From Candidatus Galligastranaerophilus faecipullorum (lineage in GTDB: Bacteria > Cyanobacteriota > Vampirovibrionia > Gastranaerophilales > Gastranaerophilaceae): a stretch of 45,787 bases of DNA. Where the stretch lies: positions 1 through 45,787 of the forward strand of contig DVFS01000021.1 of the NCBI GenBank assembly GCA_018713115.1, given 5' to 3'. The position numbers were made by a program, and so were the translations under genes. The notes under the pieces are model-generated. The model had not been told where the DNA came from and searched no databases. It saw nothing but the letters and a program-made list of their open reading frames with translations. Positions 1,965-45,716 of this stretch are shown one piece after another; positions within the stretch are counted from its first letter, which is position 1, and each line of letters opens with the position of its first letter.

Positions 1965-2456
1965 TTATCCCAAATCTCCTGATATTTTTTGTCCTACTAC
2001 TTTATATTTTACTACATCTTTTTTAATTAGCTGATTATTTACATATCTTTCAATAATGTATGTATCATAACCCGTAAAAATATTGCCGTTAAGCCGGAAC
2101 TCGGGGCTTTCTCTCTGAACGATTTTCATATTTCCGCGCGTATCGGACTTGACCCTCTGGAATTTAAGGGTTTTGCCGTCAAGATTTTTTTGAGATTCCA
2201 CCTGAATGGATGAACTTGCTCCCGATTGCACATTTTCTAAAATTAATGTATTCCCGTATCCTCCTAACGTCCATATATCGACGCTTATCGGGTTAAAAAG
2301 TTCCGGATTATTTGTTTCCGAAATTTTTGATGTCACATGCCATGTACCAAAAAACCCTTTCGGGATTTCATCTTTTGTAATTGTTGCGCGCAAAACCTCT
2401 GCCTGAGCGCAGTTTAGTGTAAGTATTAAAATAAGTGCAATTAAAAATTTTCTCAT
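1965..2456 (-). CDS. Small secreted protein of unknown function
   Basis: This is a 163-residue protein that I do not recognise. Residues 1-20 form a clear signal peptide (Lys/Arg start, long Leu/Ile run, cleavage near AQA). The mature part alternates hydrophobic and polar residues with several Gly-Asn and Asp-Gly turns, which suggests an all-beta fold; the GTWHVTSK segment is reminiscent of lipocalin-like barrels, but only loosely. It is first in a run with trxB and the dehydrogenase. There is no ribosome binding site. A TATATT box lies seven bases before the ATG, fitting the leaderless pattern seen elsewhere in this window. Confidence 0.8.
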   Translation of the reverse strand: MRKFLIALILILTLNCAQAEVLRATITKDEIPKGFFGTWHVTSKISETNNPELFNPISVDIWTLGGYGNTLILENVQSGASSSIQVESQKNLDGKTLKFQRVKSDTRGNMKIVQRESPEFRLNGNIFTGYDTYIIERYVNNQLIKKDVVKYKVVGQKISGDLG

Positions 2457-2550
2457 ACGTAAAAATATAATAATTTTTTTACAAATATCATACTTTGGAT
2501 TGAGGCGAATTTTATGCGTTATTGTACTATATAAGAGAGGAGTTTTAGTT

Positions 2551-3048
2551 TTGAGAAAAATAATAACGTTAATTTGTCTTGTTATGTTTTCGGTTTTGTG
2601 TGTTATTAACTACACAATGCCCGCGGATGCCGCAAGAAAAAACACAAAAGAAAAAAAAGAAGCTCCAAAGGTTGATGAAGAACAGCTGAATCAGATGACA
2701 CAGAAAATCGACCTTTTAACAAGAAAATATTATACAAGAGAATTATACTCGCCCGAAGACTCGGACAGTCTGATAAATTTAAAGCTTCAGCTTGACACTA
2801 TTATGAACACAACGCCCGAGCCCGTGTATGCGCCTCTTTACTATAAACTCGGCACACTTTTTAAATTAAGAGGCTTAAAGGCTGAAAGTATAGATTGTTT
2901 AAAAACAATAATAGAAAACTTCTCTGATACCGCATACGGCCCCAAGGCACGCGAAGTGCTCGGCGAAATGGGTGTAGTAATAAAAGAACCCGAGCGCCTG
3001 CCTGCCGCTGATGAAGATGAAGAAGAAGAGGACGAAGAATTTTACTAG
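2551..3048 (+). CDS. Secreted or periplasmic TPR-like helical protein
   Basis: I place the start at a TTG, because GAGAGGAG lies eight bases before it and the protein then opens with a proper signal peptide (LRKIITLICLVMFSVLC..., cleavage near ADAA). That gives about 165 residues; an upstream ATG at 2500 would add 17 residues before the signal and has no ribosome site. The mature region is helical and charged. The stretch with PLYYKLGTLFKLRGLKAESIDCLKTII looks like one or two tetratricopeptide-type helix pairs, often used for protein binding. The tail is very acidic (DEDEEEEDEEF). Its 3' end overlaps the convergent gene by four bases. Function unknown. Confidence 0.75.
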   Translation: MRKIITLICLVMFSVLCVINYTMPADAARKNTKEKKEAPKVDEEQLNQMTQKIDLLTRKYYTRELYSPEDSDSLINLKLQLDTIMNTTPEPVYAPLYYKLGTLFKLRGLKAESIDCLKTIIENFSDTAYGPKAREVLGEMGVVIKEPERLPAADEDEEEEDEEFY

Positions 3049-3563: not shown

Positions 3564-3660
3564 AGTTCTTGCCTTTGCCTTATATTTTTTTTATTCCCCA
3601 TTCAAACTAAGAAATAACAGGTTTTATGAAATTTTTATGTAGTGTATAATAAGTTTTGTT

Positions 3661-4227
3661 ATGAATAACGATTTACACAACCCGCAATTTAATAAACACG
3701 GATACATTCAGGTCTACACGGGAGACGGCAAAGGCAAAACAACAGCATCTTTAGGGCTTGCGCTGAGGGCTCTGGGGCGCGGGTGGTGCGTGCTTATCGT
3801 TATGTTTACAAAAGGCGGCTCGGACTACGGAGAGCTTTATTCTTTTGCAAATTTGAGCGATGAGATTAAAAAATGCTTTAAAATCGTAAACGCGGGCGCG
3901 GATAGAATTGTATACCGCGGCAACATTGATGAAATCGACAGAAAAGAAATTAAAAAAGGCTGGGATATAGCGCTTGACGCCATAAAAAACAATAAATACC
4001 AGCTTGTCATACTGGATGAAATAAATATCGCCGTTGATTTAGGGCTTATTGACTTAAATGAACTGCTTGACGCTCTTAAAAACAAACCTGAGGATATGGA
4101 AATTGTTTTAACGGGCAGAAATGCCAAACAGGAAGTCATAGACATTGCCCATCTGGTATCCGAGATTGTCCCTGTTAAACATTACTGGGACATAGGTGTC
4201 AGCGCAAGGGAAGGTATGGAGTATTGA
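3661..4227 (+). CDS. cobO: Cob(I)yrinic acid a,c-diamide adenosyltransferase
   Basis: CobO/BtuR-type adenosyltransferase of 188 residues. It transfers adenosyl from ATP to cob(I)alamin or its precursors, the last activation step toward coenzyme B12. The inverted-type P-loop GDGKGKTT is at residues 21-28, followed by the family motifs LVILDEINIAV and VLTGR, and it ends in the typical SAREGMEY. Length is normal. No other cobalamin gene and no cobalamin riboswitch is nearby, which fits scavenging but does not prove it. A TATAAT box lies ten bases before the ATG, leaving little or no 5' leader. The stop overlaps the start of the MlaD-like gene by four bases (TTGA). Confidence 0.95.
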   Translation: MNNDLHNPQFNKHGYIQVYTGDGKGKTTASLGLALRALGRGWCVLIVMFTKGGSDYGELYSFANLSDEIKKCFKIVNAGADRIVYRGNIDEIDRKEIKKGWDIALDAIKNNKYQLVILDEINIAVDLGLIDLNELLDALKNKPEDMEIVLTGRNAKQEVIDIAHLVSEIVPVKHYWDIGVSAREGMEY

Positions 4228-4928: not shown

Positions 4929-4972
4929 ACTTTTGTGATATTATTTTGCCCGAAATGGAGAAATAAAAGTCA

Positions 4973-5896: not shown

Positions 5897-5920
5897 ATTT
5901 AATTGTAACAAATTGTAAAT

Positions 5921-11196: not shown

Positions 11197-11946
11197 TTAT
11201 ACATTGAAAAAATTTTGCGCATTTGCTGTTGTTACGCGCTCAACTTCGCTTAATGCCGTGTCTTTCAGGTTTGCAATTTCTTTTGCGCTTAAAACAATAT
11301 ATTTAGGCGCATTTTCCTCCCCGCGGTAAGGGTGCGGGGTAAGATAGGGCGTGTCCGTTTCAAGCATAATGTGCTCAAGCGGAATTTCTTTTGCAACCTG
11401 ACGGACTTTTTTGGCATTTTTAAAAGTCACAACCCCGCCGAGCGCTATAAACCAGCCTTTTTCCACACACCTTTTTGCAAATTCCAAAGAACCCGAAAAA
11501 CAGTGAAGAAGCACTTTTTTGGCGCCCATTTGCTCTAAAATTTCAAAAGTATCCCCGTGCGCTTCCCTGTCATGCACTACAACAGGCAGCTTAAGGGCAT
11601 TTGCAATTTCTATTTGCGTTTTAAAAACTTTTTTCTGTACATCGACAAAAGTCTTGTCCCAGTAGTAATCAAGTCCTATTTCACCTATTGCGACCACTTT
11701 TTTATGCGCGGCAAGTTCCATCATCCTCCCTGCCGTATCATCACTGAATTTCTGTGCCTCGGAAGGGTGCACGCCGACTTGAGCATAAACATTTTCGTAT
11801 TCATCCGCAAGTTTTATAACTTTTTCAAATGTGTCAGGCTCAACCCCCGGGACGATTATCTTCTCCACACCCGCTTCAAGTGCTTCTTCTATCGCGCGTT
11901 TCGGGTCATTCAGCATATCAAGATGTGCATGTGTATCAATTATCAT
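11197..11946 (-). CDS. tatD: TatD family metal-dependent DNase
   Basis: A 249-residue TIM-barrel hydrolase of the TatD/YcfH family, with DNase activity in characterised members. Metal ligands are visible in THAHLDM (His6, His8), GEIGLDYYW, VVHDREAH, LHCFSGS and ETDTPYL. The PHPYRGEENAP loop is also typical. Length fits the 250-260 range. It is the first gene of the operon running through tlyA. There is no ribosome binding site; a TATTAT box sits six bases before the ATG, so the message is probably leaderless. The rnpB promoter on the other strand lies about 30 bases away, so the two transcripts diverge. Confidence 0.93.
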   Translation of the reverse strand: MIIDTHAHLDMLNDPKRAIEEALEAGVEKIIVPGVEPDTFEKVIKLADEYENVYAQVGVHPSEAQKFSDDTAGRMMELAAHKKVVAIGEIGLDYYWDKTFVDVQKKVFKTQIEIANALKLPVVVHDREAHGDTFEILEQMGAKKVLLHCFSGSLEFAKRCVEKGWFIALGGVVTFKNAKKVRQVAKEIPLEHIMLETDTPYLTPHPYRGEENAPKYIVLSAKEIANLKDTALSEVERVTTANAQNFFNV

Positions 11947-11977
11947 AGGTATATAATATCAGAAATTAGATTTGGTG

Positions 11978-11983
11978 TATAAT
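11978..11983 (+). promoter_or_regulatory. -10 box of the rnpB promoter
   Basis: TATAAT lies seven bases before the first base of the P1 helix of RNase P RNA. No clear -35 hexamer stands 17 bases upstream. Because the RNA 5' end is fixed by base pairing, this promoter shows where transcription starts relative to the -10 box in this organism. Confidence 0.8.
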
Positions 11984-11990
11984 GTTTTAT

Positions 11991-12367
11991 GGAAAGCGGG
12001 CGGATAATCGCGCGGGGGCATAAGCCTCCGTGAGGAAAGTCCGGACATCCAAAAAGGCAGATTGCTTGGGAAAGCCAAGTGCGCGCGAGCGTGAGGACAG
12101 TGCCACAGAAAAGTAGAATGCTGAACAACCCTTAAAATAGCATTGTGCCGCAAGGTACAGGCGCAATAAGGCGTACAGCGATTGTGCAACGGCGGGGTAA
12201 GAGCCCACCGCTGAAACCGCGAGGTTTCAGGCATGGTAAACCCCAATCGGATGCAAGTTTGAATTTGCAGAAAGGGTGCCTTTTCCCGCCCGAAAGGGAC
12301 TGCATAAAAAAACGCATTAGACAGATGATTATCTGAAAAACAGAATCCGGCTTATTGCAAGCTTTCC
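11991..12367 (+). ncRNA. rnpB: RNase P RNA, bacterial type A
   Basis: This is the catalytic RNA that trims tRNA 5' leaders. Conserved elements are plain: GAGGAAAGTCCGGACATC near the 5' end, the AGAGCCCACC and ATGGTAAACCCC core segments, and ACAGAATCCGGCTTAT near the 3' end. The 5' GGAAAGC (11991-11997) pairs with GCTTTCC (12361-12367) as helix P1, which sets both ends to within a few bases. The size of about 377 nt is normal for type A. No tRNA lies next to it. A strong hairpin region follows (12380-12475). Confidence 0.96.
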
Positions 12368-12757: not shown

Positions 12758-12816
12758 ATAATATAACATTATTCTTTTTTCTGTCAAATATGAAATAAAA
12801 AAGTATAATATGAAAT
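12758..12816. promoter_or_regulatory. Back-to-back promoters sharing one -35 region, with direct repeats
   Basis: On the minus strand, TTGACA (12787-12782) is followed by TATATT (spacer 16) or TATTAT (spacer 18), driving the 69-residue gene. On the plus strand, CTGTCA (12781-12786), 17 bases and TATAAT (12804-12809) drive the HTH gene. The two -35 hexamers occupy the same bases, so polymerase can use only one direction at a time. The 10-mer AATATGAAAT occurs at 12787-12796 and again at 12807-12816, two helical turns apart, inside the plus-strand promoter. Confidence 0.7.
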
Positions 12817-12817
12817 T

Positions 12818-13024
12818 ATGAGTACAAGAGATGATATTAAAAGTTTGATATTCAAAGAAGGGCAGACAATTAATTCTGTTGCAAAAGAACTTTCGCGCAT
12901 ATCAGGGAAAGAAATCACACCTAATAATTTATCACTTAAACTTGCACGCGACACGCTCCGCTACAAAGAGGCAAAAGCCATCGCGGAAATTCTCGGTTAT
13001 GAGTTAGAATTTAGAAAGCGTTAA
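12818..13024 (+). CDS. Small HTH regulator, module 1
   Basis: A 68-residue protein with a helix-turn-helix-like helical layout: DIKSLIFKEG, then INSVAKELSRISG, then NNLSLKLARDTL, then EAKAIAEILGYELEF. It resembles small Cro/XRE-type regulators found in gut bacteria and aligns without gaps to the protein at 37389-37619 (about 32 of 68 positions identical by eye). No ribosome site is present. TATAAT ends eight bases before the ATG, so translation probably begins at the 5' end of the RNA. Two direct repeats overlap its own promoter, suggesting autoregulation. A bidirectional terminator closes it. Confidence 0.78.
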   Translation: MSTRDDIKSLIFKEGQTINSVAKELSRISGKEITPNNLSLKLARDTLRYKEAKAIAEILGYELEFRKR

Positions 13025-14055: not shown

Positions 14056-15354
14056 ATGAAAAAGATTTTATCATTTATTATTGCCTTTATGTTGTTTTTT
14101 GCGCCATGTTCATATGCTCTGGAGCAAAGCGGGGCGGGAAGTTCATCTGTTTCCGTTTCGGCGGACAGTGCAGTAAAAAAAACCGCCGCAAAGAAGAAAA
14201 AAAAGAAGAAAAGCAGCAAGAAAAAGAAAAAATCAAAATCCAAAAAGAAAAAGACAGCAAAATCAAAATCAAAATCCTCAAAAAAGAAAAAATCCAAAAC
14301 CAAAAAAACAAAAAGTACAAAGCCCAAAAAAGCAAGTGTTACAAAAACCGCCGGACCTACGATGACAGAGCGCATAAACACTATCGGAAACAGGCTTTTA
14401 ACAAGGAACAAAATTGAAACGGCAATTAATTTTAAGCTTAGAAAAACAAGCAAAATCAATGCTTATGCAGATTTACACGGCAATGTCATGGTCTTTAGCG
14501 GGCTTATAAGAATTTGTGAAAATGACGAAGAACTTGCAGGCATAATAGCACATGAAGTGGGGCATATAGTAAATGCCCATATGGCAAAGCTTACCCTTGC
14601 AAACATGGCCGTAAATGTCTCTCTTGAATTTGCAAAAGCCGTGCCTGTTGTAGCTCTGCCCGTTGCACTGGTATATCTCGTATCGGCAAAAAGATGGCAG
14701 AGAATGGATGAATACGAAGCGGATATCACATCGGTCGACCTTATGATAGGTGCGGGATACAACCCGCTTGCCATGGTATCGGCACTTCAAAAAATCAACT
14801 CCGGTAAATATCTGGACTTTCTCTCAACCCACCCGTCAGGCGAAAAAAGGACTCTTTACATATACGACTACATAGCACACAGATATCCGCAATATATTGA
14901 AAAAGGGTACGACACGGAAAGCTACAGGGAATTTCTTGCATATGCAAAACCGATTCTTGATGAGCGGAAATTTGACAATGACCTTATGACAAAACACCTT
15001 GAAAAACAGGAAAAACTTGAAATAAAAAGAAAGAAAAAATATGCAAAATACCAGAGAGCATATTATGAAAAACAGGAAAGAATCGCGCAGGATAAAATAG
15101 AGCAGGAGCAAAAAGCGCTTGAAGCAAAAGAAAAACTCGCCCAAAAAGCCCTAAAAGAAGTGCAAAAAGCAGCAGCAAAACAAAAAAGGCTTGAAGAGAA
15201 AAAAATAAAAAAAGAGCAAAAACTGCAGGAAAAACTTGAAAAACAAAAGCAAAAAGCACTGATAAAAGAACAAAAGCAGGAGGAAAAACGCCTTAAAAAA
15301 GAAAATAAATTAAAAGAAAAAGACCTTGAAAATAAGCAAAAATCAGCGGCTTAG
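14056..15354 (+). CDS. M48 family metalloprotease with Lys-rich linker and charged tail
   Basis: 432 residues in three parts. Residues 1-22 are a signal peptide. Residues about 40-95 are almost pure Lys/Ser (runs of KKKKKSSKKKKK type), a low-complexity, strongly basic linker. The peptidase domain follows (about 100-260), with zinc motif HEVGH at 166-170 and the third ligand region EYEAD at 219-223, as in M48 proteases such as BepA/LoiP, which handle outer-membrane protein quality. The last 130 residues form a Lys/Glu/Gln-rich coiled coil. Family members usually carry TPR or LysM parts instead, so both extensions are unusual. AGGTG precedes the ATG. The 3' end overlaps the converging exonuclease gene by 12 bases. 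Confidence 0.88.
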   Translation: MKKILSFIIAFMLFFAPCSYALEQSGAGSSSVSVSADSAVKKTAAKKKKKKKSSKKKKKSKSKKKKTAKSKSKSSKKKKSKTKKTKSTKPKKASVTKTAGPTMTERINTIGNRLLTRNKIETAINFKLRKTSKINAYADLHGNVMVFSGLIRICENDEELAGIIAHEVGHIVNAHMAKLTLANMAVNVSLEFAKAVPVVALPVALVYLVSAKRWQRMDEYEADITSVDLMIGAGYNPLAMVSALQKINSGKYLDFLSTHPSGEKRTLYIYDYIAHRYPQYIEKGYDTESYREFLAYAKPILDERKFDNDLMTKHLEKQEKLEIKRKKKYAKYQRAYYEKQERIAQDKIEQEQKALEAKEKLAQKALKEVQKAAAKQKRLEEKKIKKEQKLQEKLEKQKQKALIKEQKQEEKRLKKENKLKEKDLENKQKSAA

Positions 15355-15939
15355 CTTTTTTAACATATCAAGATAGATTAAATACGTCATTTCACAGTCT
15401 TTAAGCCCTCTGTGGGCGCCTTTTGTATCAATATTTAAATGATGCGCTATAGTGGAAAGTTTATAATTTTCAAGTCTGTATGCCTTTTTAGCCAGAGATA
15501 CGGTATCAACAAGGTTATTAGAGAGATTCTCATCAAAATTTATTTTCATTTCCCTGTGCAGAAAATTAGCGTCAAACCTGACATTGTGCCCGACAATGAT
15601 ATCTTCGCCCGTAAATTCTTTAAACTTTTTAAGCACTTCTTTTATATCGGGCTGATTTTCAAGCATTGAAGGTAAAATACCAGTGAGATTTGAAATAAAA
15701 GCACTAATGGCACATTTAGGATTAATAAGCATGGAAAAATCCGCAGCTCTTTTTAGTCCCCTTACTTTAATTGCACTTATTTCAATTATCTCATCCGATG
15801 TGAGGTTAAAGCCCGTAGTTTCAATATCGACCACACAGAAATCCTGCGGCATAATATCAAGCATTCTGCCGCGCGGTTTTCTCCTGACGGGAGTTTTCGG
15901 AATTTCAATATTTTCACTAAAAGACAAGTTAAGCTGCAT
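15343..15939 (-). CDS. DnaQ-like 3'-5' exonuclease, stand-alone
   Basis: A 198-residue DEDDh exonuclease. Exo I is D38-I-E40-TTGF, Exo II is GHNVRFDANFL, and Exo III is GAHRGLKDCEMTY with the catalytic His and Asp. Residues 1-30 form a basic extension (VRRKPRGR) before the domain. It resembles the epsilon proofreading subunit and the free-standing exonucleases related to it; which one cannot be decided here. It is a second, distinct copy of this fold in the window (the first is at 4973). No ribosome site: TATAAT lies six bases before the ATG, so a leaderless message is likely. Confidence 0.85.
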   Translation of the reverse strand: MQLNLSFSENIEIPKTPVRRKPRGRMLDIMPQDFCVVDIETTGFNLTSDEIIEISAIKVRGLKRAADFSMLINPKCAISAFISNLTGILPSMLENQPDIKEVLKKFKEFTGEDIIVGHNVRFDANFLHREMKINFDENLSNNLVDTVSLAKKAYRLENYKLSTIAHHLNIDTKGAHRGLKDCEMTYLIYLDMLKKLSR

Positions 15940-16010
15940 GATTTAATTATAAAATGAAATAACATACAGACAAAACATTTTATATATTGTAAATATTAAT
16001 TATAACTAAC

Positions 16011-16039
16011 TTGACTAAAAATATTGTAAAATATAGAAT
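16011..16039 (+). promoter_or_regulatory. Promoter of the GT10 gene
   Basis: TTGACT (16011-16016), a 17-base spacer and TAGAAT (16034-16039) make a near-consensus sigma-70 promoter. The ATG at 16047 is at the expected transcription start. The TTG of the -35 box is in frame with the gene and could be mistaken for its start codon. Confidence 0.78.
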
Positions 16040-16046
16040 AACTGCT

Positions 16047-16949
16047 ATGGAAGAAGTAAAAATAAACTATTTCGGGTTTACCGAAGATTTTGACGAGCAA
16101 AATAATTTTTTGCTAGACATACTGGCAAAAAATTTTAAACCTGTTATTTCAGACAAACCTGATTTTGTTTTTTGTTCTTGGTTTTATAGAGAAAGCCGTA
16201 ATAAAAAGAAAAAATTTCCTTTTAAAAACTGTATTAAAATCTTCTTTTCCCAGGAACCTTTAAGGATTCGCTCCCTGAGATATCATTACATTGCCGCAGA
16301 CAGAGTGTTTAAAACTCTTCAGAAAGATAAATTTCTGCTTTATAATTACTGCCCCCCGATAAATCCCGAACAAAGAAAAACATTGCCCGATTCTCTTGCA
16401 AAGAGAAAATTCTGTAACTTTGTTTATTCAAACTTTTCCTGCGGCAATAATGCACAAAACAGGGTGGATTTTTGTAAAAAATTAGCGCAATATAAACACA
16501 TCGACTGCCCCGGGAAAGTTCTGAATAACATGAAAAACAGCATCAGCGCGCGCGACGGAGTAGACTGGGTGCAGGGCAAAATGGATTTTATCAGCAATTA
16601 TAAATTCACAATAGCCTTTGAAAATAATATTTTTAGAGGCTACACCACAGAAAAGCTGTATCAGCCGTTTCTGGCAAATTCCATTCCCATATATTCGGGC
16701 AATCCCGATGTTTTAGAGGATTACAACCCGAAAGCTTTTATCAATGTTGCGGATTATAAAAATTTTGACGAAGTTATTGAAAAAGTAATAGAACTTGACA
16801 ACAACGACGAGCTTTATATGCAGATGTTAAGGGAGCCTGTTTACTGCAGAGAAATCGACTATGACAAAAAGCTGGAAGAGTTTTTATACCATGCGGTCAA
16901 ACAGGGAAATACATTCTTAAACAGATTAAACAAAGCAATATTTATTTAA
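16047..16949 (+). CDS. Glycosyltransferase family 10 (alpha-1,3-fucosyltransferase-like)
   Basis: About 300 residues from the ATG. The GT10 signature is clear in the second half: NYKFTIAFENN followed by RGYTTEKLYQPFLANSIPIYSGNPDV, which forms the GDP-fucose site in FucT enzymes; an upstream FCNFVYSNFSC also fits. GT10 enzymes add fucose in alpha-1,3/1,4 linkage, as in Lewis-antigen-type LPS decoration of Helicobacter. Here it may modify O-antigen or another surface glycan. I reject the in-frame TTG at 16011, since it is the -35 box. The gene stands alone, without other glycan genes next to it; heptose kinase and O-antigen ligase are about 7 kb away. Confidence 0.88.
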   Translation: MEEVKINYFGFTEDFDEQNNFLLDILAKNFKPVISDKPDFVFCSWFYRESRNKKKKFPFKNCIKIFFSQEPLRIRSLRYHYIAADRVFKTLQKDKFLLYNYCPPINPEQRKTLPDSLAKRKFCNFVYSNFSCGNNAQNRVDFCKKLAQYKHIDCPGKVLNNMKNSISARDGVDWVQGKMDFISNYKFTIAFENNIFRGYTTEKLYQPFLANSIPIYSGNPDVLEDYNPKAFINVADYKNFDEVIEKVIELDNNDELYMQMLREPVYCREIDYDKKLEEFLYHAVKQGNTFLNRLNKAIFI

Positions 16950-17045
16950 TCTCCGCTTTTGTTATTGTTAAAATCCGTACTGTTATTTTATCATACTACT
17001 CTTTTTGTATGAAAAGATTTTTTAAAAGAGGGATATAATGGTCTT

Positions 17046-20000: not shown

Positions 20001-20168
20001 GAAGTTGACGGGGCAGAGGACGAGTTTTTATCTAATGTCAATGAAACTAAAAAGCAGTCAATAATGGAGCGTCTGGGCTATGAAGTCGTGCGTGTGACAA
20101 AACGCGAATGGGGCTTGAGTAAAGACGCTGCTCTTGATAGAATAAGGTCACAGCTGGTACAAAGTTAA
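17046..20168 (+). CDS. SF1 helicase (Upf1/Dna2-like) with C-terminal nuclease-like domain
   Basis: 1040 residues. An unassigned N-terminal part (about 1-320) is followed by a superfamily 1B helicase: Walker A GPPGTGKSQT near 340-349, Walker B VIIDEASQCD near 660, VGDDKQLPH, a long helical insert (about 440-600), and the C-terminal motifs GTAHTFQGDERDI and NVAITRARKKL. The last 100 residues (EVFEDLCEEFPTHELRAGVDFAGINADIMMDGRLVVEVDG...) look like a DUF559/Vsr-type restriction-endonuclease fold with an acidic D/EVDG core. This combination is known in AAA_11/AAA_12 proteins of repair or phage defence. TATAAT lies six bases before the ATG. MutS2 follows after ten bases. Confidence 0.87.
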   Translation: MLQEAQKAIASAFNTSFIKKLAQYLHDCVREEVKSSTFRNLKEDKENKWVFLDDEEKLFTNFDEPLLLDGSDSYLTELMIQGDMNAKEKYLIYGYLFLVGKNSKVRKNNQFLTPLLYVPCKLERKGVNIVLTAQEDILSLNTGALAQLMKRDDEQEADAMLSGLLDVVPELPLTKESLDVFLTTLKSLVPEVEIETSAAENDIKQDFEDFYSRENIEKAFEDGDFDFDAIDEIAKRPRVKVEKLTLQQKCAVILTKRPTVTAGVLHELTQIAEKPQGVYRETVLNVISHEYLLQKGKVANEKIEQKEIADFFPITPLALSDSQEDVIKKIEENDFLAVYGPPGTGKSQTIVNLVSHLIANGKSVLVASRMDKAVDVVAERLNSLSAPYLALRAGRANYQKMLNFKLEDLLSNKVDLDSGYADAVMAEPGDMKNLLNEIKRLEDGAQKIFALEKHYGEINDEKKETKEAIGECEIIKNALSLEEVSQVKKLLEALEKYERKQKKNFLDKIFEGIKLKKIKKLLNLKGKVKASEISARLAMELDLELLEAKLREIENNIYKIGNLHQILKKIKSLRKKQRKLAVDILRNRRRTALKNILCDQQKRQRLMIHSKSLVSRKVNQQNRLLEKEDFKPLLSAFPCWCVTTYAISNSLPLKPALFDVVIIDEASQCDIASCFPILFRAKKAVIVGDDKQLPHLSFLEKAKEQSFLNQYNIEDRYQLLWRFRTNSMFDVANYYSTTPTLLDEHFRSPKPVIEFSNREFYGGRIKVMKPYFDTVSPVEVIEVQEAKVDTDVTRNQAECEAVIKKVQDIIYENEKNPDSEPVSIGIISPFRGQVELIKKAVLKVFSQETIQRHEIEVGTAHTFQGDERDIMLMSWAIAPNSHSQSLMFLQKPNLFNVAITRARKKLINFISKSVNDLPEGLLRDYLEFVQSQDRVISSRKNTFKNLFEKEVFEDLCEEFPTHELRAGVDFAGINADIMMDGRLVVEVDGAEDEFLSNVNETKKQSIMERLGYEVVRVTKREWGLSKDAALDRIRSQLVQS

Positions 20169-23238: not shown

Positions 23239-23297
23239 TTTAGCATAAAATTTACTTTTGGGCTTAATTTCATTTTTATGTTAGAATAAAAGTTGCA

Positions 23298-27423: not shown

Positions 27424-27489
27424 GGTAGAAATTTTAGCATAATCAAACCTGTGTAAACAAATTTTCTTTACGGGTTTTTAGAAAATACA

Positions 27490-33146: not shown

Positions 33147-33548
33147 TTATTCATATTTTGCAAATTCTTTTGATTCCTCTTCCCATTCTTCGCGCTCGAG
33201 TTTGAAGGCATGGTTCCAGAATTTTTCAAGTGCATAGGTTTCTCTTTGTTCACTGTGCATGATGTGTACTACCACATCGCCGTAGTCAAGCAGGTTCCAG
33301 CGGTTTTTAACGTCGTTTTCATCGCCTGCGGGGATTCTGCCGAAATGTTCTTTTATCTTTTCGCGCACCGTTGCGGTTAAGCCTTTTACCTGGGTTGAGC
33401 TCTGTGCCGAGGCTATTACAAAATAGTCGGAGAGTACACAGACATTTGCCACGTTTAAAATCACAATATCAAGCGCTTTTGAGTCGTCTAAAATACGTGC
33501 AATCACACTTGCGAGTTTTTTTGAAGAAATTTCTTTTGTTTCAATCAT
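33147..33548 (-). CDS. rsfS: Ribosomal silencing factor RsfS
   Basis: 133 residues of the RsfS/Iojap family. It binds ribosomal protein L14 and keeps the subunits apart when nutrients are low. The family motifs SDYFVIASAQSSTQVKGL, IPAGDENDVKNRWNLLDYGDVVVHIM and EQRETYALEKFW are all present. The final 20 residues are acidic and extend a little past the usual end. Its ATG overlaps the stop of the upstream YaaT-like gene by one base (TAATG), so translation is coupled. It faces rplI, another 50S-linked gene. Confidence 0.96.
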   Translation of the reverse strand: MIETKEISSKKLASVIARILDDSKALDIVILNVANVCVLSDYFVIASAQSSTQVKGLTATVREKIKEHFGRIPAGDENDVKNRWNLLDYGDVVVHIMHSEQRETYALEKFWNHAFKLEREEWEEESKEFAKYE

Positions 33549-34468
33549 TATATATTTCCCGTTGAACTGTTTTTATCGTTATCCAGTGATTTTAAATCCA
33601 CCGTTTCGCCTTCCTCATGGTAATTTAGTGCGTTTTGCGAGGGGTCGATTTCAATATTTACTTCCTGATCAATCATCTCGATGTCGTCTTTTGAATATTC
33701 CTTGATTTTGCCGTCCTCAAGCTTGACCGATACGGTTTTTTTAAGAAAATTGAGCGAAAATACTTTGGCGACGCCGTCGGGTGTCATAACGCCCGAGCCA
33801 ATGGGAGGCAGGGTTTTTGCGGCTTCAAGGTAGTTAGGGTATTCGTAGTTTAAGCAGCATAAAAGTCTGCCGCAAGCGCCCGTAATTTTCCCCGGAGTCA
33901 TGGGAATTCCCTGATCGCGTGCGAGTTTTGTATTTACCGATTCAAATTTCTTTAAAAATCTGCAGCAGCAGTAATCCTGTCCGCAAACGCCCTGACCGCC
34001 TAAAATTGAGGTTTCATCCCGCACGCCTATGTGTCTTAAATCTATTCTCACCCTTTTAAATTCCTGTGTGAGGTCTTTTAAAAGTTCGCGAAAATCCACT
34101 CTCTCGGGCGCCGTGTAGTAAAAAGTAATTTTTTTCCTGTCAAAAGTGTAGCGGGTCTGAACAAGGTTCATAACAAGTCCGCGCTTTTCAACGAGTGCTT
34201 TGCACTTAAAAAACGCTTCGACTTCAAGTTTTTTCTGCTCCTCAAGGGCTGCGCGGTCATTTTCATTAATGGTGCGGATTAAAGGCAGCGCCTCGGGTTT
34301 GAACTTTTGCCACTGCTGCATGATTTGAGAATTTACTATAAAAACACTAAAGACCTCTTCGCCCTTTTCCGTTCTGACAAGGACTTTTTGCCCGTGGTGC
34401 AGATTTGCTCCGTCGGGAACTTTAAGAGGGTGAAAGGTGTTTTTAATAATTCTCACTGCAAATTTCAT
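33548..34468 (-). CDS. PSP1/YaaT family protein
   Basis: About 306 residues from the ATG at 34468; a start six codons upstream would lie in the promoter. The PSP1 C-terminal domain is plain, with the Cys-rich signature GVCGQDYCCCRFLKKF and GACGRLLCCLNYEY. In Bacillus, YaaT joins YlbF and YmcA in a complex that acts on RNase Y and on phosphorelay; in other lineages its role is less clear. TATAAT sits six bases before the ATG. It diverges from the SNF2 helicase gene across 44 bases. A C-terminal polar tail follows the domain. Confidence 0.88.
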   Translation of the reverse strand: MKFAVRIIKNTFHPLKVPDGANLHHGQKVLVRTEKGEEVFSVFIVNSQIMQQWQKFKPEALPLIRTINENDRAALEEQKKLEVEAFFKCKALVEKRGLVMNLVQTRYTFDRKKITFYYTAPERVDFRELLKDLTQEFKRVRIDLRHIGVRDETSILGGQGVCGQDYCCCRFLKKFESVNTKLARDQGIPMTPGKITGACGRLLCCLNYEYPNYLEAAKTLPPIGSGVMTPDGVAKVFSLNFLKKTVSVKLEDGKIKEYSKDDIEMIDQEVNIEIDPSQNALNYHEEGETVDLKSLDNDKNSSTGNI

Positions 34469-34474
34469 AAAAAA

Positions 34475-34505
34475 ATTATACAACAAATTTTGTTTATATT
34501 AAAAT
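34475..34505. promoter_or_regulatory. Divergent -10 boxes between yaaT-like and SNF2 genes
   Basis: TATAAT on the minus strand (34480-34475) stands six bases before the yaaT-like ATG. TAAAAT on the plus strand (34500-34505) stands seven bases before the SNF2 ATG. With only 44 bases between the two start codons, each promoter's upstream part must overlap the other's. Confidence 0.65.
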
Positions 34506-34512
34506 AAATAAG

Positions 34513-37413
34513 ATGATAGTTGCGGACAATCTTACTTTTAAGAAAAACGATATCGAAAAACTTCTTTTGAATCTGGATCAAAACCCTTATTCTCAAAAGA
34601 ATAAAGACTTTCGCTATACGCTCTCGCTTATCTACGAACTTATAGAGGAAGAGTTTTCAGACACTTTTGATACTAAAAATCAGATTCTTCGCACAACGGA
34701 TATTATCCTTAAGGCAAAAGATAACACGGCTGAGATTTTTATTACCCCGCCTTATAATTTTGAATATTATCTGAAGTCAAAAGGTTCGCTCTACAGGCTT
34801 AAAGCGCAGTATAAAAACTTTGACAATGAAGATAAATACGGTTATGACATCACGCTTGATATGCTCTTTGAATACTTTACGGGCATTGATGAAAATCAAG
34901 AGCTTGCGGATGATGTTACACAGAATTATCGGTTCTACTTTAACCTTTTTCAGTTTGTTAAAAAAACAGTTGAAAAGCTAAACTTCATCCCCGCGGTAAA
35001 GTTTAAAAAAGATACGTTTTCCATAGTCTGGGAGCCTTATTTTAAAAATAAAGACTACTTAAGGAGTTATCAAAGTGTTGTTGAGAATGATTTTCTTGAC
35101 TCAGAAACCACAAAAAAACTCATTGACAGGTATTTAAATTACCTTATATTTACATTCTTAGGTGTTAAGCACTACAAATTCAAAGATCTGAAAGCTGCGA
35201 TATACTTTACTAAAAACACTTCTCACAAAAGAATTTTCAAGGGCAGTGATTTAGGTCTTGATATTCAAAGCTGGCTTGATGAAATGTCTTTAGGAACTTA
35301 TGACATTATTCCGGTCTTTAATATTGAAAAACTCGACGATGAGAAGTTTTTAATGCGCATTCTTGCCAAAGACAAGGTTAAAAATGAGATAATAAACCTT
35401 GATGACCTTGATGAAATGCAAAAAACGCTTATTGAAAAGCAAATCAACTGGGCTACAAAATACATTGAAGACCTTGAAGATGTTACTTTAGAGCTTGATT
35501 TGTCGGGTGTTTACAAGCTTATTACGCAGATTACTTACTATCTTGCGCAGGCAGGCATGGAAGTGAATCTGCCCGAGGGAATGGATAATGTTATTATCCC
35601 GCGTGCTTCAATTAACGCTAAAATCAAGCAAAAACGCCTCGGCGATATTCAGGAGCTGTTAAATCTCAATACAAATTCCACAATCTCGCTTGATGAGATT
35701 ATGGATTTTTCAATCGAGGTGGCTCTGGGTGAGAGTGAAAAAATGTCGGCGGAAGAGTTTCAGAAACTCGCTAAAGATACAAACGGGCTTATTAAATACA
35801 AAGACAAATACATTCTTATCGACCGCGATGAAACACAAAAACTGCTTGAGCGCTTAAAGAAAAAGCCTGATTTTGTGATGAACAAAATGCAGCTTTTGCA
35901 CCATGCGCTCTCGGGCAAGATTGATGAGTATGATTTTGACTACGATGAAGCCTTTGCGCGCATTATCTCCGATTTTACAAGAGTTGAGGAAATTTCCCTT
36001 CCAAAGAACCTTACAGGCACGCTGCGCCCCTATCAGGAAATCGGTTTCAGATGGCTGTATACTAACGTTACCAAGGGTTTTGGCTGTGCGATAGCCGATG
36101 ATATGGGTCTCGGTAAGACAATTCAGGTTATAAGCCTTATTTTAAAATTAAAAGAGGAAAATAAACTTAAAAAACCTGTGCTTGTTGTGTGCCCGACCAC
36201 TCTTATGGGCAACTGGGAGCGTGAACTTGAAACATTTGCACCGAGCCTTAAAACGTATATTTATCACGGTTTTAACCGTGAATTCAGCATGGACTGTGAT
36301 GTTATCCTTACAACCTATGCAATATTAAGAATTGACCTTGAAGAGTTTAAAAAGCACAGCTGGGATTTATTTGTAATTGATGAAGCGCAGAACATTAAAA
36401 ACCCATCCACAAGCCAAACTCAGGCAGTAAAAACAATCAAAGCGAACATGAGAATCGCAATGACGGGCACACCTGTTGAAAACCGCTTAAGCGAGCTTTG
36501 GAGCATTTTTGACTTTATAAACAAAGGCTATTTAGGCTCAATTAACGACTTTAGCAAAAACTACTCCGTGCCCATTGAAAGGTTTAAAGAAACCACACGC
36601 GCGCAAAAACTCAAAAAAGCAATCTCGCCTTTTATGCTAAGGCGCCTGAAAACAGACAAGACAATTATCTCCGACCTGCCTGAAAAAGTAGTGCTGGATG
36701 AGTTCTGCTATTTGACAAAGACTCAGGCGGCGCTGTACGAGCGTGTTTTAAATCAGTCAATGAATGACATTGCAAACTCGGGCGGCGGTATCAACAGACG
36801 CGGTGCGATTTTCAAACTTATTACCTCCTTAAAACAGGTATGTAACCACCCTTACCACTATTTAAAACATGGCGATATGAGTCAGGGCGCCTCGGGCAAA
36901 ACGCAAAAACTCGTATCCATTCTGCACAATATCATCTCAAACGATGAAAAAGCGCTTGTATTCACGCAATACAAAGAAATGGGCACGATTCTTGAAAAAA
37001 TTATTGCAGATGAATTTAACTTTGATCCGCTCTTTTTCCACGGTTCGTTGAATGTCAAACAAAGAGAACAGATGATAGGGGAATTCAGCGAAGATTTATC
37101 CAAAAAAATCATGATTCTCTCGCTTAAGGCGGGAGGTCTGGGTTTGAACCTTACATCCGCGTCAAACGTTATCCACTACGACCTGTGGTGGAACCCTGCC
37201 GTTGAAGATCAGGCAACAGACAGGACTTACCGTATCGGACAGGATAAAAACGTTATGGTACACAGGTTTATAACTCTTTCAACATTTGAAGAAAAAATCG
37301 ATAAAATAATAAAAGACAAACGCGAACTCGCTGACGCTGCAGTATTCGCAGGCGAAAAAATCATCACCGAACTAAGCGATGATGAAATCTATGAAATATT
37401 TTCACTTGCCTGA
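34513..37413 (+). CDS. SNF2/HepA-type DEAD-like helicase (SWI2/SNF2 family)
   Basis: 966 residues. The N-terminal 480 residues include a SNF2-associated region (about 380-450, LLNLNTNSTISLDEIMDFSIEVALGE is typical; quoted parts LLNLNTNSTISLDEI and FSIEVALGE). The ATPase core follows: motif I DDMGLGKT near 530, DEAQ near 623, TGTPVENRLSELWS. The helicase C-lobe has KALVFTQYKEM, LSLKAGGLGLNLTSAS and DQATDRTYRIGQ. These enzymes remodel protein-nucleic acid complexes; bacterial HepA/RapA relatives free stalled RNA polymerase, but this subtype is the broader one common in Cyanobacteria. No ribosome site; TAAAAT lies seven bases before the ATG. Confidence 0.94.
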   Translation: MIVADNLTFKKNDIEKLLLNLDQNPYSQKNKDFRYTLSLIYELIEEEFSDTFDTKNQILRTTDIILKAKDNTAEIFITPPYNFEYYLKSKGSLYRLKAQYKNFDNEDKYGYDITLDMLFEYFTGIDENQELADDVTQNYRFYFNLFQFVKKTVEKLNFIPAVKFKKDTFSIVWEPYFKNKDYLRSYQSVVENDFLDSETTKKLIDRYLNYLIFTFLGVKHYKFKDLKAAIYFTKNTSHKRIFKGSDLGLDIQSWLDEMSLGTYDIIPVFNIEKLDDEKFLMRILAKDKVKNEIINLDDLDEMQKTLIEKQINWATKYIEDLEDVTLELDLSGVYKLITQITYYLAQAGMEVNLPEGMDNVIIPRASINAKIKQKRLGDIQELLNLNTNSTISLDEIMDFSIEVALGESEKMSAEEFQKLAKDTNGLIKYKDKYILIDRDETQKLLERLKKKPDFVMNKMQLLHHALSGKIDEYDFDYDEAFARIISDFTRVEEISLPKNLTGTLRPYQEIGFRWLYTNVTKGFGCAIADDMGLGKTIQVISLILKLKEENKLKKPVLVVCPTTLMGNWERELETFAPSLKTYIYHGFNREFSMDCDVILTTYAILRIDLEEFKKHSWDLFVIDEAQNIKNPSTSQTQAVKTIKANMRIAMTGTPVENRLSELWSIFDFINKGYLGSINDFSKNYSVPIERFKETTRAQKLKKAISPFMLRRLKTDKTIISDLPEKVVLDEFCYLTKTQAALYERVLNQSMNDIANSGGGINRRGAIFKLITSLKQVCNHPYHYLKHGDMSQGASGKTQKLVSILHNIISNDEKALVFTQYKEMGTILEKIIADEFNFDPLFFHGSLNVKQREQMIGEFSEDLSKKIMILSLKAGGLGLNLTSASNVIHYDLWWNPAVEDQATDRTYRIGQDKNVMVHRFITLSTFEEKIDKIIKDKRELADAAVFAGEKIITELSDDEIYEIFSLA

Positions 37414-37619
37414 CCCTTTTTAACAAACTGAATTTCATACCCTAAAATTTCCGCAATAGCTTCAGCGTCTTCAAAACGCAGGTAGCCTTTGTTTAGTTTT
37501 GCCGAAAAGTTGCTCAGGCTGATGTTTTTGCCGGTCTTTTCACTTAAAAGCATGGCAAGTTCTTTCATTGTGATATTTTCTTTAGCCATAAGAATTTTAA
37601 TGTGTTCTTTTGCGCTCAT
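37389..37619 (-). CDS. Small HTH regulator, module 2
   Basis: A 76-residue protein paralogous to the one at 12818: same helices (HIKILMAKEN, MKELAMLLSEKTG, SNFSAKLNKGYL, DAEAIAEILGYEIQF), aligned without gaps, with a short extra tail. The block AEAIAEILGYE is almost identical in both. Likely a DNA-binding Cro/XRE-like repressor. TATAAT (37632-37627) ends seven bases before the ATG and no ribosome site exists, so its message is probably leaderless, as in module 1. Its 3' end overlaps the SNF2 gene tail by 25 bases. Confidence 0.78.
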   Translation of the reverse strand: MSAKEHIKILMAKENITMKELAMLLSEKTGKNISLSNFSAKLNKGYLRFEDAEAIAEILGYEIQFVKKGQASENIS

Positions 37620-37626
37620 AAATATA

Positions 37627-37677
37627 ATTATACTTATTTATTGAATGATTGACATATCAGTTGATATATTTTATAAT
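37627..37677. promoter_or_regulatory. Divergent promoters with perfect consensus and embedded palindrome
   Basis: Plus strand: TTGACA (37649-37654), exactly 17 bases, TATAAT (37672-37677), an ideal sigma-70 promoter for the 53-residue gene. The spacer holds ATATCA-GT-TGATAT (37654-37667), a 14-base inverted repeat placed where a bound repressor would block polymerase. Minus strand: ATGTCA (37655-37650), 17 bases, TATAAT (37632-37627) for the HTH gene. As in module 1, the two -35 hexamers share the same bases. Confidence 0.85.
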
Positions 37678-39258: not shown

Positions 39259-39423
39259 TTAAATTAAATCATCGGGCTTTAGCTGTTTTTTGTCAAGATG
39301 AAACTTTGCAAACCTTGCTTTTATGGGGTTTGTAGCCTTTGATGAAAATTGAAAATCCGGGTCTTTTTTTGACTCTTTTTCGATTTTCTTTTCTTCAATG
39401 AATGTAAGTTTATCTTTTTCCAT
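39259..39423 (-). CDS. Small basic/acidic protein heading the prmC operon
   Basis: A 54-residue gene that short-gene filters would miss. It reads MEKDKLTFIEEKKIEKES, then DPDFQFSSKATNPIKARFAKFH and ends KKQLKPDDLI. It is charged, without cysteines or hydrophobic segment. TATAAT lies six bases before the ATG and there is no ribosome site. The stop is one base from the next ATG, so this is the first gene of the operon leading to prmC. Translation is supported by this arrangement, not by similarity. Confidence 0.65.
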   Translation of the reverse strand: MEKDKLTFIEEKKIEKESKKDPDFQFSSKATNPIKARFAKFHLDKKQLKPDDLI

Positions 39424-39491
39424 AATGCAATTATATACCTTTTATATACTAATAAAGTATTTCAAATGAAAAAAATTGCCTGATTTTAAAA

Positions 39492-42461: not shown

Positions 42462-42560
42462 GGTTATTTTTTGTTTTGTGATGCCGGGAAAATTTCCGTT
42501 GCAAGCTCTGTGAAAATATTATATAATATTTTTATAAGTCATTGTATTTCGGGTGCATTA

Positions 42561-43157: not shown

Positions 43158-43161
43158 AAAA

Positions 43162-43608
43162 CTAGTGCTTTGCGGCTTTAGAGATATCTCTCTGTATGTC
43201 TTTTTTCTTCAGGGCTTCTCTTTTGTCGTAGAGTTTTTTACCCTTTGCAAGGGCTATGTCGACTTTTGCCCATCTGCCCGAAAAATACATTTCAAGAGGC
43301 ACTATAGTGTAGTTTTCCTGCTTTACTTTACCGAGCATTTTGAGTATTTCTTTTTTATTTAAAAGCAGCTTTCTTACGCGTTTTTCTTCATGGTTAAAAC
43401 GGTTTCCCTGCTCATACAGACTTATATGTGCATTGTACAAAAAGGCTTCGGAATCTTCGATTTTAACAAAACTGTCTTTGAGATTAACCGCTCCTTTTCT
43501 GATTGATTTTATCTCGGTGCCCGTCAAAACAAGACCTGCACTGAATTTATCAAAAATCAGGAAGTCATGGTATGCTTTTTTGTTTGTTGTAATAATTTTT
43601 TTCTGCAT
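43162..43608 (-). CDS. smpB: SsrA-binding protein SmpB
   Basis: About 148 residues from the ATG at 43608. Motifs KKAYHDFLIFDKFSAGLVLTGTEIKSIRKG (parts KAYHDFLIFDKF and GLVLTGTEIKSIRKG) and KGKKLYDKREALKKKD mark the OB-fold and basic tail that hold tmRNA and enter the stalled ribosome. Codons upstream would add 25 residues not seen in the family and would cover the promoter. TATAAT is six bases before the ATG; there is no ribosome site. It diverges from the histidine kinase and converges with the prepilin gene. The tmRNA gene is not in the window. Confidence 0.97.
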   Translation of the reverse strand: MQKKIITTNKKAYHDFLIFDKFSAGLVLTGTEIKSIRKGAVNLKDSFVKIEDSEAFLYNAHISLYEQGNRFNHEEKRVRKLLLNKKEILKMLGKVKQENYTIVPLEMYFSGRWAKVDIALAKGKKLYDKREALKKKDIQRDISKAAKH

Positions 43609-43652
43609 AAAAGGATTATAACACAGTTTTGTTATGCTATAATGTTGCCGAG

Positions 43653-45716
43653 ATGAACAAAGTAAAGTTCGATTTAACAGCACAAAATAAATTAATTATC
43701 ACGGGGTTATTAATATCGACCGTTGTCATTGTAGGGGTTGCGTTTTTTGCCATAAGCAAAATCCAGCAGAAACTCTACGATTCATACGGCAGCTTCGGGC
43801 AGCTTTTAACTAAAACACTTGCCATACAGACTTATGAACTTACAAAAGATACCCCTAAAGAGTACAGATACAACCTTTTAAGAACGCATGCGAATTCAAT
43901 CCTCACAAGTAATAAAGATATTTCTTTTATAACTTTTAAAGACGAAAAAGGTAAAATAATCTATACAACGGCAGACGCCTATAACCGCCGTGCACAGGAT
44001 ACAAGGATTAATGTAAGTTCTCCTATGACGGATTCTTTCGGAAGAATTGTGGGAATAGTTGAAATAGGTCTGAGTGCCGATATGGCAAGTGTGGTCGCGC
44101 GCACGACAAAAAATTCCATGCTTTTGGTATTTACCCTTGTGTGGATAATATTTACCATAGTTATTGTCGTAAATACTTTCTTAATCACGCGCGAACTTAC
44201 GCTTTTGCACCACGGGGTAAAAGAAATTTCTAACGGCAGGTTCGGTACGGTGCTTGATTATAAGCAGTCCTCGGGCGAGATAAAAGAGCTTTTTTCGGCA
44301 TTTAACGATATGTCAAAAAGACTGCATGCCTATGAAGAACAAAACGTCGACCAGCTTACTCTTGAGCGCAACAAACTCGAGGCGGTTTTGATGAGCATTG
44401 CAAACGGGGTTGTCGTGTGTGACAATTACGACAAGGTTTCAATAGTCAACCCTGCGGCGCAAAAAATCCTCTCCGCAACTGCAATGGAGCTTTCGGGAAC
44501 ATCTATTCAAAACTATTGCGATACAAACGGCGAGATGTGCTTTAAGGAAAAAATTGCCGTTTTTAAAGACACTCCGCTTGATGTTATGGAGAAAAAGCCG
44601 CTTGAGTTTAATATAAATGTCGACAACAGAGTAATAAAAACGCTCATTTCGCCTATGTACTCAAAAGTCCACGATTATATGGGCTATATTATAATACTTA
44701 TCGATATTACAAAAGAAGCCGAGGTGGACAAGCTTAAAAATGACTTTATATCCAATGTCTCCCATGAATTAAGAACGCCCGTTACCATTCTTACAAGTTA
44801 TGCGGAAACCCTCTACAGTTACGGAAAAGACTTTAACTACGATGAGCAGAAAGAATTCATCGGCACCATAAATCAGGAAGTTATCCGCTTGAATAAAATG
44901 GTTAATGATATTCTGGATTTTTCAAAACTTCAAAACGATGTCGAACTTGAAAAGACAAGGCAGAATATTATGCCCGTTATAGAGCGCTCGCTTGAGGATC
45001 ATAAAATCCTTGCGGAAGAAAAAAATATTACCTTCTCGGTCATAAAAGAGCCGGGGCTGCCTGATATTGCCTTTAACGAGCAGAGTATCGAGAGGGTTTT
45101 ATCTAACCTTATTACAAATGCAATAAAATACTCGCCTGATAACTCGCGTGTTAAAATCCGCGCGGAGATTGCAAAAGACCCGAATTACCTTGAAGTAACC
45201 ATTGAAGATATGGGTATGGGTATTGCGCCCGAGTATCAGGAAAAAATCTTTGACAGATTCTTTAGAATAGAAAACGCCACGCACACCATCAAAGGTACGG
45301 GTTTAGGCTTGCACCTTGTTAAAATCGCCATTGAAAAACACCACGGCGGCAAGGTTTTTGTCCGCTCAAAAGTAGGCGAAGGTTCGACTTTCGGTTTCCG
45401 GCTGCCTCTTGATGCCAAGGCAACCGATGAAAATGTTCAAACCCCGCAAGACCCGGAGCAAATACCAGTTGCTGTGCATAAAGAGGCTGCAGGCAGTGAA
45501 AACACCCAAAACACGCAAGAGACCGGGGCTGCAAAAACCGTAAACGAAATGCCTCAAAACCGCGAAGAAAAAGTCTATGAACCTGCAGAAATTTCAACCG
45601 TAAAAGACTATGAAACCAAAGCCGTGCAGGACGCAAAATTTGTAGACGCCCCCCCGCCAAAACCCAAGGAAGAAGAATGGGAAATAACCTTCGAGGTGAG
45701 GGATAAGAAAATATAA
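43653..45716 (+). CDS. Sensor histidine kinase, HAMP-PAS type (NblS/WalK-like)
   Basis: 687 residues from the ATG at 43653; an in-frame TTG 24 bases upstream overlaps the promoter. Membrane helix 1 (about 12-34), an extracytoplasmic sensor (35-150), helix 2 (about 157-182), a HAMP region, a PAS domain (NGVVVCDNYDKVSIVNPAAQKIL), the phospho-acceptor H-box SNVSHELRTPV, then HATPase motifs NLITNAIKYSP, EDMGMGIAP and KGTGLGLHLVK. The order matches NblS/Hik33 of Cyanobacteria and WalK of Firmicutes, which watch envelope or stress state. A tail of about 100 Glu/Pro/Thr-rich residues is unusual. TATAAT lies nine bases before the ATG. No response regulator is in the window. Confidence 0.93.
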   Translation: MNKVKFDLTAQNKLIITGLLISTVVIVGVAFFAISKIQQKLYDSYGSFGQLLTKTLAIQTYELTKDTPKEYRYNLLRTHANSILTSNKDISFITFKDEKGKIIYTTADAYNRRAQDTRINVSSPMTDSFGRIVGIVEIGLSADMASVVARTTKNSMLLVFTLVWIIFTIVIVVNTFLITRELTLLHHGVKEISNGRFGTVLDYKQSSGEIKELFSAFNDMSKRLHAYEEQNVDQLTLERNKLEAVLMSIANGVVVCDNYDKVSIVNPAAQKILSATAMELSGTSIQNYCDTNGEMCFKEKIAVFKDTPLDVMEKKPLEFNINVDNRVIKTLISPMYSKVHDYMGYIIILIDITKEAEVDKLKNDFISNVSHELRTPVTILTSYAETLYSYGKDFNYDEQKEFIGTINQEVIRLNKMVNDILDFSKLQNDVELEKTRQNIMPVIERSLEDHKILAEEKNITFSVIKEPGLPDIAFNEQSIERVLSNLITNAIKYSPDNSRVKIRAEIAKDPNYLEVTIEDMGMGIAPEYQEKIFDRFFRIENATHTIKGTGLGLHLVKIAIEKHHGGKVFVRSKVGEGSTFGFRLPLDAKATDENVQTPQDPEQIPVAVHKEAAGSENTQNTQETGAAKTVNEMPQNREEKVYEPAEISTVKDYETKAVQDAKFVDAPPPKPKEEEWEITFEVRDKKI

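Follow-up and report, generated by a model that had tools for sequence, protein, structure and literature searches.

Leaderless genes, in which a -10 box lies directly before the start codon, have been described in a range of bacteria. Zheng et al. (2011; PMC3160421) reported TANNNT signals located about 12 bp before starts and assigned leaderless genes to 207 of 953 bacterial genomes, and 21.6% of bacterial species are predicted by GeneMarkS-2 to use leaderless transcription (as cited in PMC9581028). In Deinococcus-Thermus a -10-motif adjoins open reading frames (ORFs) and gives leaderless mRNA, as supported by mutation and RNA data (Zhong et al. 2025; PMC12340547), and Cappable-seq of mouse cecum classified 10% of the transcription start sites of Akkermansia and 15% of those of Bifidobacterium as leaderless (PMC4782308). 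Many cyanobacterial genomes are said to use neither Shine-Dalgarno (SD)-led nor leaderless genes (PMC3160421), a weak signal of unknown type is predicted by GeneMarkS-2 in, e.g., Cyanobacteria (as cited in PMC9581028), and 48 leaderless mRNAs, 6 of which are conserved in strain 6803, are reported for Synechocystis 6714 (PMC5386190). Here we analyze -10 boxes directly upstream of start codons in a stretch of 45,787 nucleotides (the window; contig DVFS01000021.1 of assembly GCA_018713115.1) of Candidatus Galligastranaerophilus faecipullorum, a member of the Gastranaerophilales within the phylum Cyanobacteriota.

The best explanation for these boxes, and on the sequence evidence a highly probable one, would be that they are Sigma-70 -10 elements which abut the ATG and give rise to leaderless mRNAs. 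The arrangement is like that of Zheng et al. (PMC3160421) in having the same box at the same position beside SD-led genes; Cyanobacteria are not among the groups listed in that paper with leaderless genes, whereas here their non-photosynthetic relatives appear to have them. A -10 box directly before the start is likewise shared with Deinococcus-Thermus, although around 30% of the ORFs are concerned there and a raw 10-18% of the operon-first genes here, and although the motif is said to suffice there (PMC12340547), whereas a TTG at a spacing of 16-17 and an extended -10 are enriched here, with most boxes lacking each. Synechocystis 6714 (PMC5386190) belongs to the same phylum, but the photosystem II (PSII)-bearing genomes analyzed here show only a 1.15-fold spacing excess. 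The leaderless share in the gut bacteria of PMC4782308 is similar, but these belong to other phyla, and Gastranaerophilales, Melainabacteria and Cyanobacteria do not appear in the main text of that paper. Within the open-licence PMC full text no paper was found on leaderless genes in Gastranaerophilales, Melainabacteria or Vampirovibrio, which fits the remark in an initial annotation of the window that no report was known for this lineage. The mechanism as such is already known.

Excess of boxes at gap 6-7

The host genome is a metagenome-assembled genome (MAG) of 1,785,349 bases; its relatives are Candidatus Gastranaerophilales. Genes were called in the window and in a further 20 stretches of this genome (428 kb in total, 382 kb outside the window) with a small script based on a codon-phased Markov model, in which coding score and start codon alone decided on the starts, blind to the upstream sequence. 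Genes with a divergent neighbour, or with at least 60 bases to the same-strand neighbour, were considered operon-first. A box was defined as a hexamer of the form TA...T with at least 5 of 6 matches to TATAAT, and the gap as the number of bases between the end of the box and the start.

The initial annotation had suggested that boxes before starts be counted against shuffled upstream regions, and this count gave a clear excess at gap 6-7. Outside the window, 19 of 183 operon-first genes had such a box, as compared to a mean of 4.6 (SD 2.1, maximum 12) in 300 dinucleotide-preserving shuffles of the same upstream regions. The window itself is richer (12 of 31 operon-first genes; p=2e-4); eleven of the twelve had been listed in the initial annotation and the twelfth is the gene called at 14089. 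Among the relatives 25 of 191 first genes had a box at gap 6-7 (other gap pairs: mean 7.8, maximum 14), whereas the three gene-level samples of PSII-bearing genomes showed no excess there (5 of 221; other gap pairs: mean 4.9). When alternative ATG starts were allowed, gap 6-7 accounted for 22 of 175 genes outside the window (2-11 in the seven other gap pairs tested), 27 of 174 in the relatives (2-16 in other pairs) and 4 of 201 in the PSII-bearing genomes (3-7 in other pairs). Boxes at gap 5-8 were found before 34 of 214 first genes and 1 of 112 genes inside operons (31 of 180 and 5 of 126, respectively, under earlier class limits).

A count that is independent of the gene caller was made by searching exact TATAAT, followed by k bases (k from 0 to 25) and an ATG that opens at least 100 codons. 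The 20 stretches outside the window gave 13 cases at k=6, 5 at k=7 and 0-6 elsewhere, so that k=7 is not above k=21 (6) and k=22 (5). The relatives gave 12 cases at k=6, 10 at k=7 and 0-4 at other k, and three PSII-bearing genomes 0, 1 and 0-3, respectively. Over the whole own genome TATAATN6ATG occurs 81 times. The reversed pattern, with 24 occurrences, was a rough guide only, since a reversed ATG is no start codon, and it was superseded by a spacing control in which exact TATAATN{6,7}ATG was compared to TATAATN{11,12}ATG in 291 genomes sampled from the phylum. Within the own family N6-7 exceeded N11-12 in all 132 genomes (26442 versus 15250), with ratios of 1.11-3.05 and a median of 1.73.

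In an expectation-maximization (EM) analysis of the 214 first genes of the own sample, around 18% were assigned a box at gap 5-9 and around 48% an AGGAG motif at gap 4-13. Putative leaderless genes are on these counts frequent yet a minority, and the SD-led class is larger. The initial claim that leaderless genes look common was right in so far as the excess is real; the raw share is some 10-18% of operon-first genes, background included, and not the 39% seen in the window.

Promoter features and Shine-Dalgarno sites

Four features that played no part in the selection of the genes point to Sigma-70 -10 elements with a predicted +1 at the A of the ATG. First, an extended -10 TG accompanied 19 of the 58 boxes at gap 6-7 (own genome and relatives), as compared to 454 of 7099 boxes in coding DNA (p=2e-9). 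Second, a TTG at a spacing of 16-17 was found for 11 of these 58 and for 386 of the 7099 (p=3e-4). For 90 boxes at gaps 0-4 or 9-16 the values were 8% (TG) and 3% (TTG), and for 298 boxes at gaps 20-50, the expected place of leadered promoters, 10% and 14%. Third, 49 of 56 box genes had a pyrimidine at -1, versus 166 of 304 other ATG-started genes (p=1.4e-6); this would be the usual -1/+1 preference if the A of the ATG is +1. Fourth, all 56 box genes started with ATG, versus 304 of 349 others, and the pattern with GTG substituted for ATG gave a spacing excess of 1.07-fold (1882 versus 1755 in 40 family genomes), as compared to 1.73-fold for ATG in the 132 genomes.

SD-like sites were found in only 2 of 56 box genes versus 150 of 349 others. 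This exclusion was dropped as independent evidence, because non-box genes with another A/T-only hexamer at gap 6-7 had an SD site in just 5 of 43 cases. The ribosomes of the family appear equipped for SD pairing: the anti-SD, CACCTCCT, is intact at the end of all three full-length 16S genes obtained from relatives within the family. The 16S gene of the own MAG was looked for and not found. Genes inside operons had been described as mostly carrying AGGAG-type sites, which holds for about half of them by a strict regular expression (57 of 112) and for a fraction of ~0.72 by EM. The AAGGAG-type sites of the neighbouring genes 24325 and 31106 are kept in relatives.

Conservation in orthologues

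Box and gap were conserved in most orthologues examined, that is for the genes starting at 17046, 27423, 34468, 34513 and 43608. In the counts of distinct upstream regions the window sequence is included and rows without an aligned start codon are omitted. The AAA_11/AAA_12 helicase-like gene (Pfam; 17046-20168) is preceded by TATAAT at gap 6 (17034-17048, forward strand). All 10 close relatives have the exact box at gap 6, and L120 (65% identity) has it at gap 7. The box is invariant across seven distinct upstream regions with a variable spacer, but the DNA just upstream of it is well conserved too among the close relatives. A frame of 9 codons (17009-17038), of which the TAA falls inside this TATAAT, is found in 9 of 10 close relatives and is shortened in L055; it could encode a leader peptide or reflect no more than conservation of the promoter DNA.

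The Amidase_3 gene (Pfam; 26251-27423) has TAAAAT at gap 7 (27421-27436, reverse strand), and all 11 distinct upstream regions of its family have TA(A/C/G/T)AAT at gap 6-7 in otherwise diverged DNA (the row of L122 was omitted). For the PSP1-domain gene (Pfam; 33548-34468), with TATAAT at gap 6 (34466-34480, reverse strand), five of six distinct upstream regions have the box at gap 6-7 (four of five other genomes with an aligned start). The orthologue in G037 (L083/L121) has the same box 18 bases upstream of the start with AGAGGA in between, and would be a natural leadered version of a leaderless gene. Divergent to it lies an SNF2-family helicase gene (Pfam; 34513-37413) with TAAAAT at gap 7 (34500-34515, forward strand). 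TAAAAT was found at gap 6-7 in all five distinct upstream regions of this family with an aligned start (7 rows from 4 genomes were omitted). The first residues vary within the family (MIVA, MDKI, MDKK, MMEL), but the distance between box and ATG remains 6-7 bases. The counts exclude 21 rows of more distant orthologues (43-49% identity), in none of which the start was aligned; on visual inspection, an ATG is preceded by TATAAT at gap 6 in some of these (L090, L092), and others seem to be leadered (L099). For smpB (43162-43608; TATAAT at gap 6, 43606-43620, reverse strand) box, gap and spacer were identical in the single orthologue, L113.

Some of the listed genes do not add to this. Conservation is contradicted by the 54-amino acid ORF at 39259-39423 (TATAAT at gap 6, 39421-39435, reverse strand), which has only a weak box in its sole orthologue, L113. 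The TatD-type DNase gene (11197-11946; TATTAT at gap 6, 11944-11958, reverse strand) has a different start in the one distant relative found (L068). The 68-amino acid ORF at 12818-13024 lacks a Pfam match and has TATAAT at gap 8 (12804-12820, forward strand); its sole match, L075 (48%), has TATAAT further upstream, also matches the gene starting at 37619, and is not clearly an orthologue. Among the loci searched no orthologue was found for the genes starting at 15939 and 16047.

Alternative explanations

The box could also be an AT-rich translational element, such as a signal for S1 or for an unstructured leader, within a normal leader that is transcribed from further upstream. The upstream regions in this genome are AT-rich, signals of this kind have been proposed for Bacteroidetes and Cyanobacteria and are discussed for non-SD genes in PMC5397173, and SD sites are also scarce where other A/T hexamers occupy the same place. 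A translational role, however, leaves the peak at gap 6-7 unaccounted for, as well as the enrichment of TTG and TG there and not at gaps 0-4 or 9-16, the preference for a pyrimidine at -1, and the conservation of TA...T with a free third position, as in the Amidase_3 family (TAAAAT, TACAAT, TAGAAT, TATAAT). We consider it improbable.

Equally improbable in our view is a reading with genuine promoters but another start, in which translation would begin further downstream and the mRNAs would have ordinary short leaders. This probably does apply to the PfkB-type kinase gene at 23298, where the initial annotation had described a box (TAGAAT at gap 10; 23282-23300, forward strand) that is indeed present at this gap, but before an ATG which is doubtful. 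That ATG is absent in 5 of 10 relatives (6 of 12 in another comparison), all of which have the next ATG (23304 here), in three of them preceded by GGAAGG. As a general explanation it is opposed by the requirement for ATG at this position, with GTG nearly unenriched, by the conservation of the ATG together with the box in four families with several orthologues, and by the SNF2 family, in which the start follows the box and not the protein. Chance co-occurrence, although AT-rich intergenic DNA yields boxes at any gap (mean 8.6 of 183 per gap pair), is very hard to reconcile with 19 of 183 versus a shuffle maximum of 12, with the excess in 132 of 132 family genomes and with the conservation in orthologues.

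Several observations nevertheless weigh against leaderless transcription as the explanation, or temper it. The start positions derive from a home-made gene caller. Outside the window the excess over other gap pairs is moderate (19 versus a mean of 8.6 and a maximum of 16; p=1.4e-3) and smaller than that over the shuffles; the other gaps also contain promoters of leadered genes. With alternative ATGs allowed, gap 1-2 reaches 11 of 175 and, in the relatives, gap 11-12 reaches 16 of 174. The EM analysis seeded with TATAAT held the motif only in the first genes of the own genome and drifted elsewhere, in the family sample to the SD motif. The majority of the boxes at gap 6-7 lack TTG at 16-17 and the majority lack TG, and the GTG count is slightly above its control (p=0.04). 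The scarcity of SD sites is not independent, as the box mostly just fills the space. Finally, rnpB, for which the initial annotation had used the 5' end as a yardstick, calibrates the gap only loosely. In the window a gap of 7 separates its TATAAT (11978-11991, forward strand) from the 5' strand of P1 of the RNase P RNA (GGAAAGC, starting at 11991), in agreement with the gaps at the ATGs, but the gaps are spread in relatives, with a box (at least 5 of 6 matches) at gap 6-9 in 9 of 18 scored loci; the other 12 of the 30 loci were left out, as their 5' coordinate was hidden in clipped loci.

The leaderless reading can be specified as follows. RNA polymerase with the main sigma factor would bind promoters of which the -10 box ends 6-7 bases before the ATG, and transcription would start at the A of the ATG, or a few bases earlier at gaps 8-10. 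As this leaves no room for an SD site, the ribosome would start on the 5'-terminal AUG without SD pairing, while the same ribosomes would use SD sites for many other genes; the mode would serve mainly the first genes of transcription units. The sequence data support the polymerase and promoter half of this mechanism, and we infer where exactly +1 lies and which route the ribosome takes (70S or 30S).

Other boxes in the window

A script check retrieved all 15 boxes of the initial annotation at the gaps given there. Besides those described above, gap 6 is represented by TATAAT before the RNase_T exonuclease gene (15343-15939; box 15937-15951, reverse strand). At gap 7 we found TAGAAT before a glycosyltransferase family 10 gene (16047-16949; 16034-16049, forward strand), TATAAT before a Cro/C1-type helix-turn-helix gene (37389-37619; 37617-37632, reverse strand) and TATATT before the ORF 1965-2456, which lacks a Pfam match and lies upstream of a thioredoxin reductase gene (2454-2469, reverse strand). 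TATTAT at gap 7 (14076-14091, forward strand) precedes the called ATG 14089 of an M48-protease-like gene that was not listed initially; its start is uncertain, as the longest ORF opens at 14056. The looser cases include TATAAT at gap 10 (3645-3663, forward strand) before the cob(I)yrinic acid a,c-diamide adenosyltransferase gene (3661-4227) and TATAAT at gap 9 (43638-43655, forward strand) before a histidine kinase gene (43653-45716), where the gap is 10 in L113. For both, a leader of about 2-4 bases would be expected, probably one of 2-3 bases for the histidine kinase gene.

In three divergent pairs the two -10 boxes are close together: 19 bp apart for the PSP1 and SNF2 genes (34475-34505; also 19 bp in L120), 17 bp for smpB and the histidine kinase gene (43615-43643; also 17 bp in L113) and 19 bp for tatD and rnpB (11953-11983). 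At such distances each -35 would overlap the -10 box of the partner. Elsewhere in the own genome, on contig C25, two adjacent and similar 122-amino acid, membrane-protein-like ORFs (L028, L029) each have TATAAT at gap 6, with the spacers ATTGTT and ATTTGT. ATTGTT is also found as a spacer at two places on contig C48 and at one on contig C73 of this genome.

Distribution within the phylum

For the spacing survey, the 135 genomes with a Photo_RC match were taken as PSII-bearing, and non-PSII status follows from absence among those 135. Beyond the own family, N6-7 was the higher count in all six genomes of the same order and class (782 versus 533) and in all 13 genomes of five families outside the class without Photo_RC (480 versus 178; 2.7-fold). 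Five further non-PSII genomes outside the class showed no significant spacing excess. Of the PSII-bearing genomes 83 had the higher count at N6-7 (8231 versus 7130 over all 135), a small yet significant 1.15-fold excess, and with single genomes reaching 1.87 the ranges of the family and the PSII-bearing genomes overlap.

At gene level the samples of the deep non-PSII families are too small, with a box at gap 5-8 in 1 of 15, 0 of 39 and 1 of 42 first genes, and the case for these families is based on the genome-wide spacing counts and on a reading-frame test. We also determined whether the ATG of exact N6 occurrences opens at least 60 codons. It did so in 22 of 30 loci of the own genome (the first 30 of the 81), in 26 of 30 taken from six deep non-PSII genomes (5 per genome, out of 249 places) and in 4 of 30 taken from six PSII-bearing genomes (5 per genome, out of 516 places; own versus PSII-bearing, p=5e-6). 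The deep genomes sampled are richer in GC (51-65%), which makes long frames easier, and an in-frame stop within 20 codons upstream was seen in 7 of their 26 cases versus 15 of 22 in the own genome. In these deep genomes many spacers end in CC before the ATG (e.g. TATAATCCCGCCATG), a pyrimidine preference at -1 and -2 that was noted without counting.

Judged from these patterns, leaderless initiation seems to be widespread among the non-photosynthetic members of the phylum, whereas its signal is weak among the photosynthetic ones. Tentatively, leaderless initiation may have been ancestral in the phylum, kept by the Gastranaerophilales and the deep non-PSII families and largely lost toward the oxygenic Cyanobacteria, although we would not favour this scenario on present data.

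Implications

In these uncultured gut bacteria the prediction of starts can err where leaderless genes are not modelled. Moreover, leaderless mRNAs can respond differently to antibiotics that block initiation (PMC9581028). The contrast with the photosynthetic relatives suggests a change within the phylum in how ribosomes find starts and, if the ancestral scenario were true, translation initiation would have been rewired around the origin of the oxygenic Cyanobacteria.

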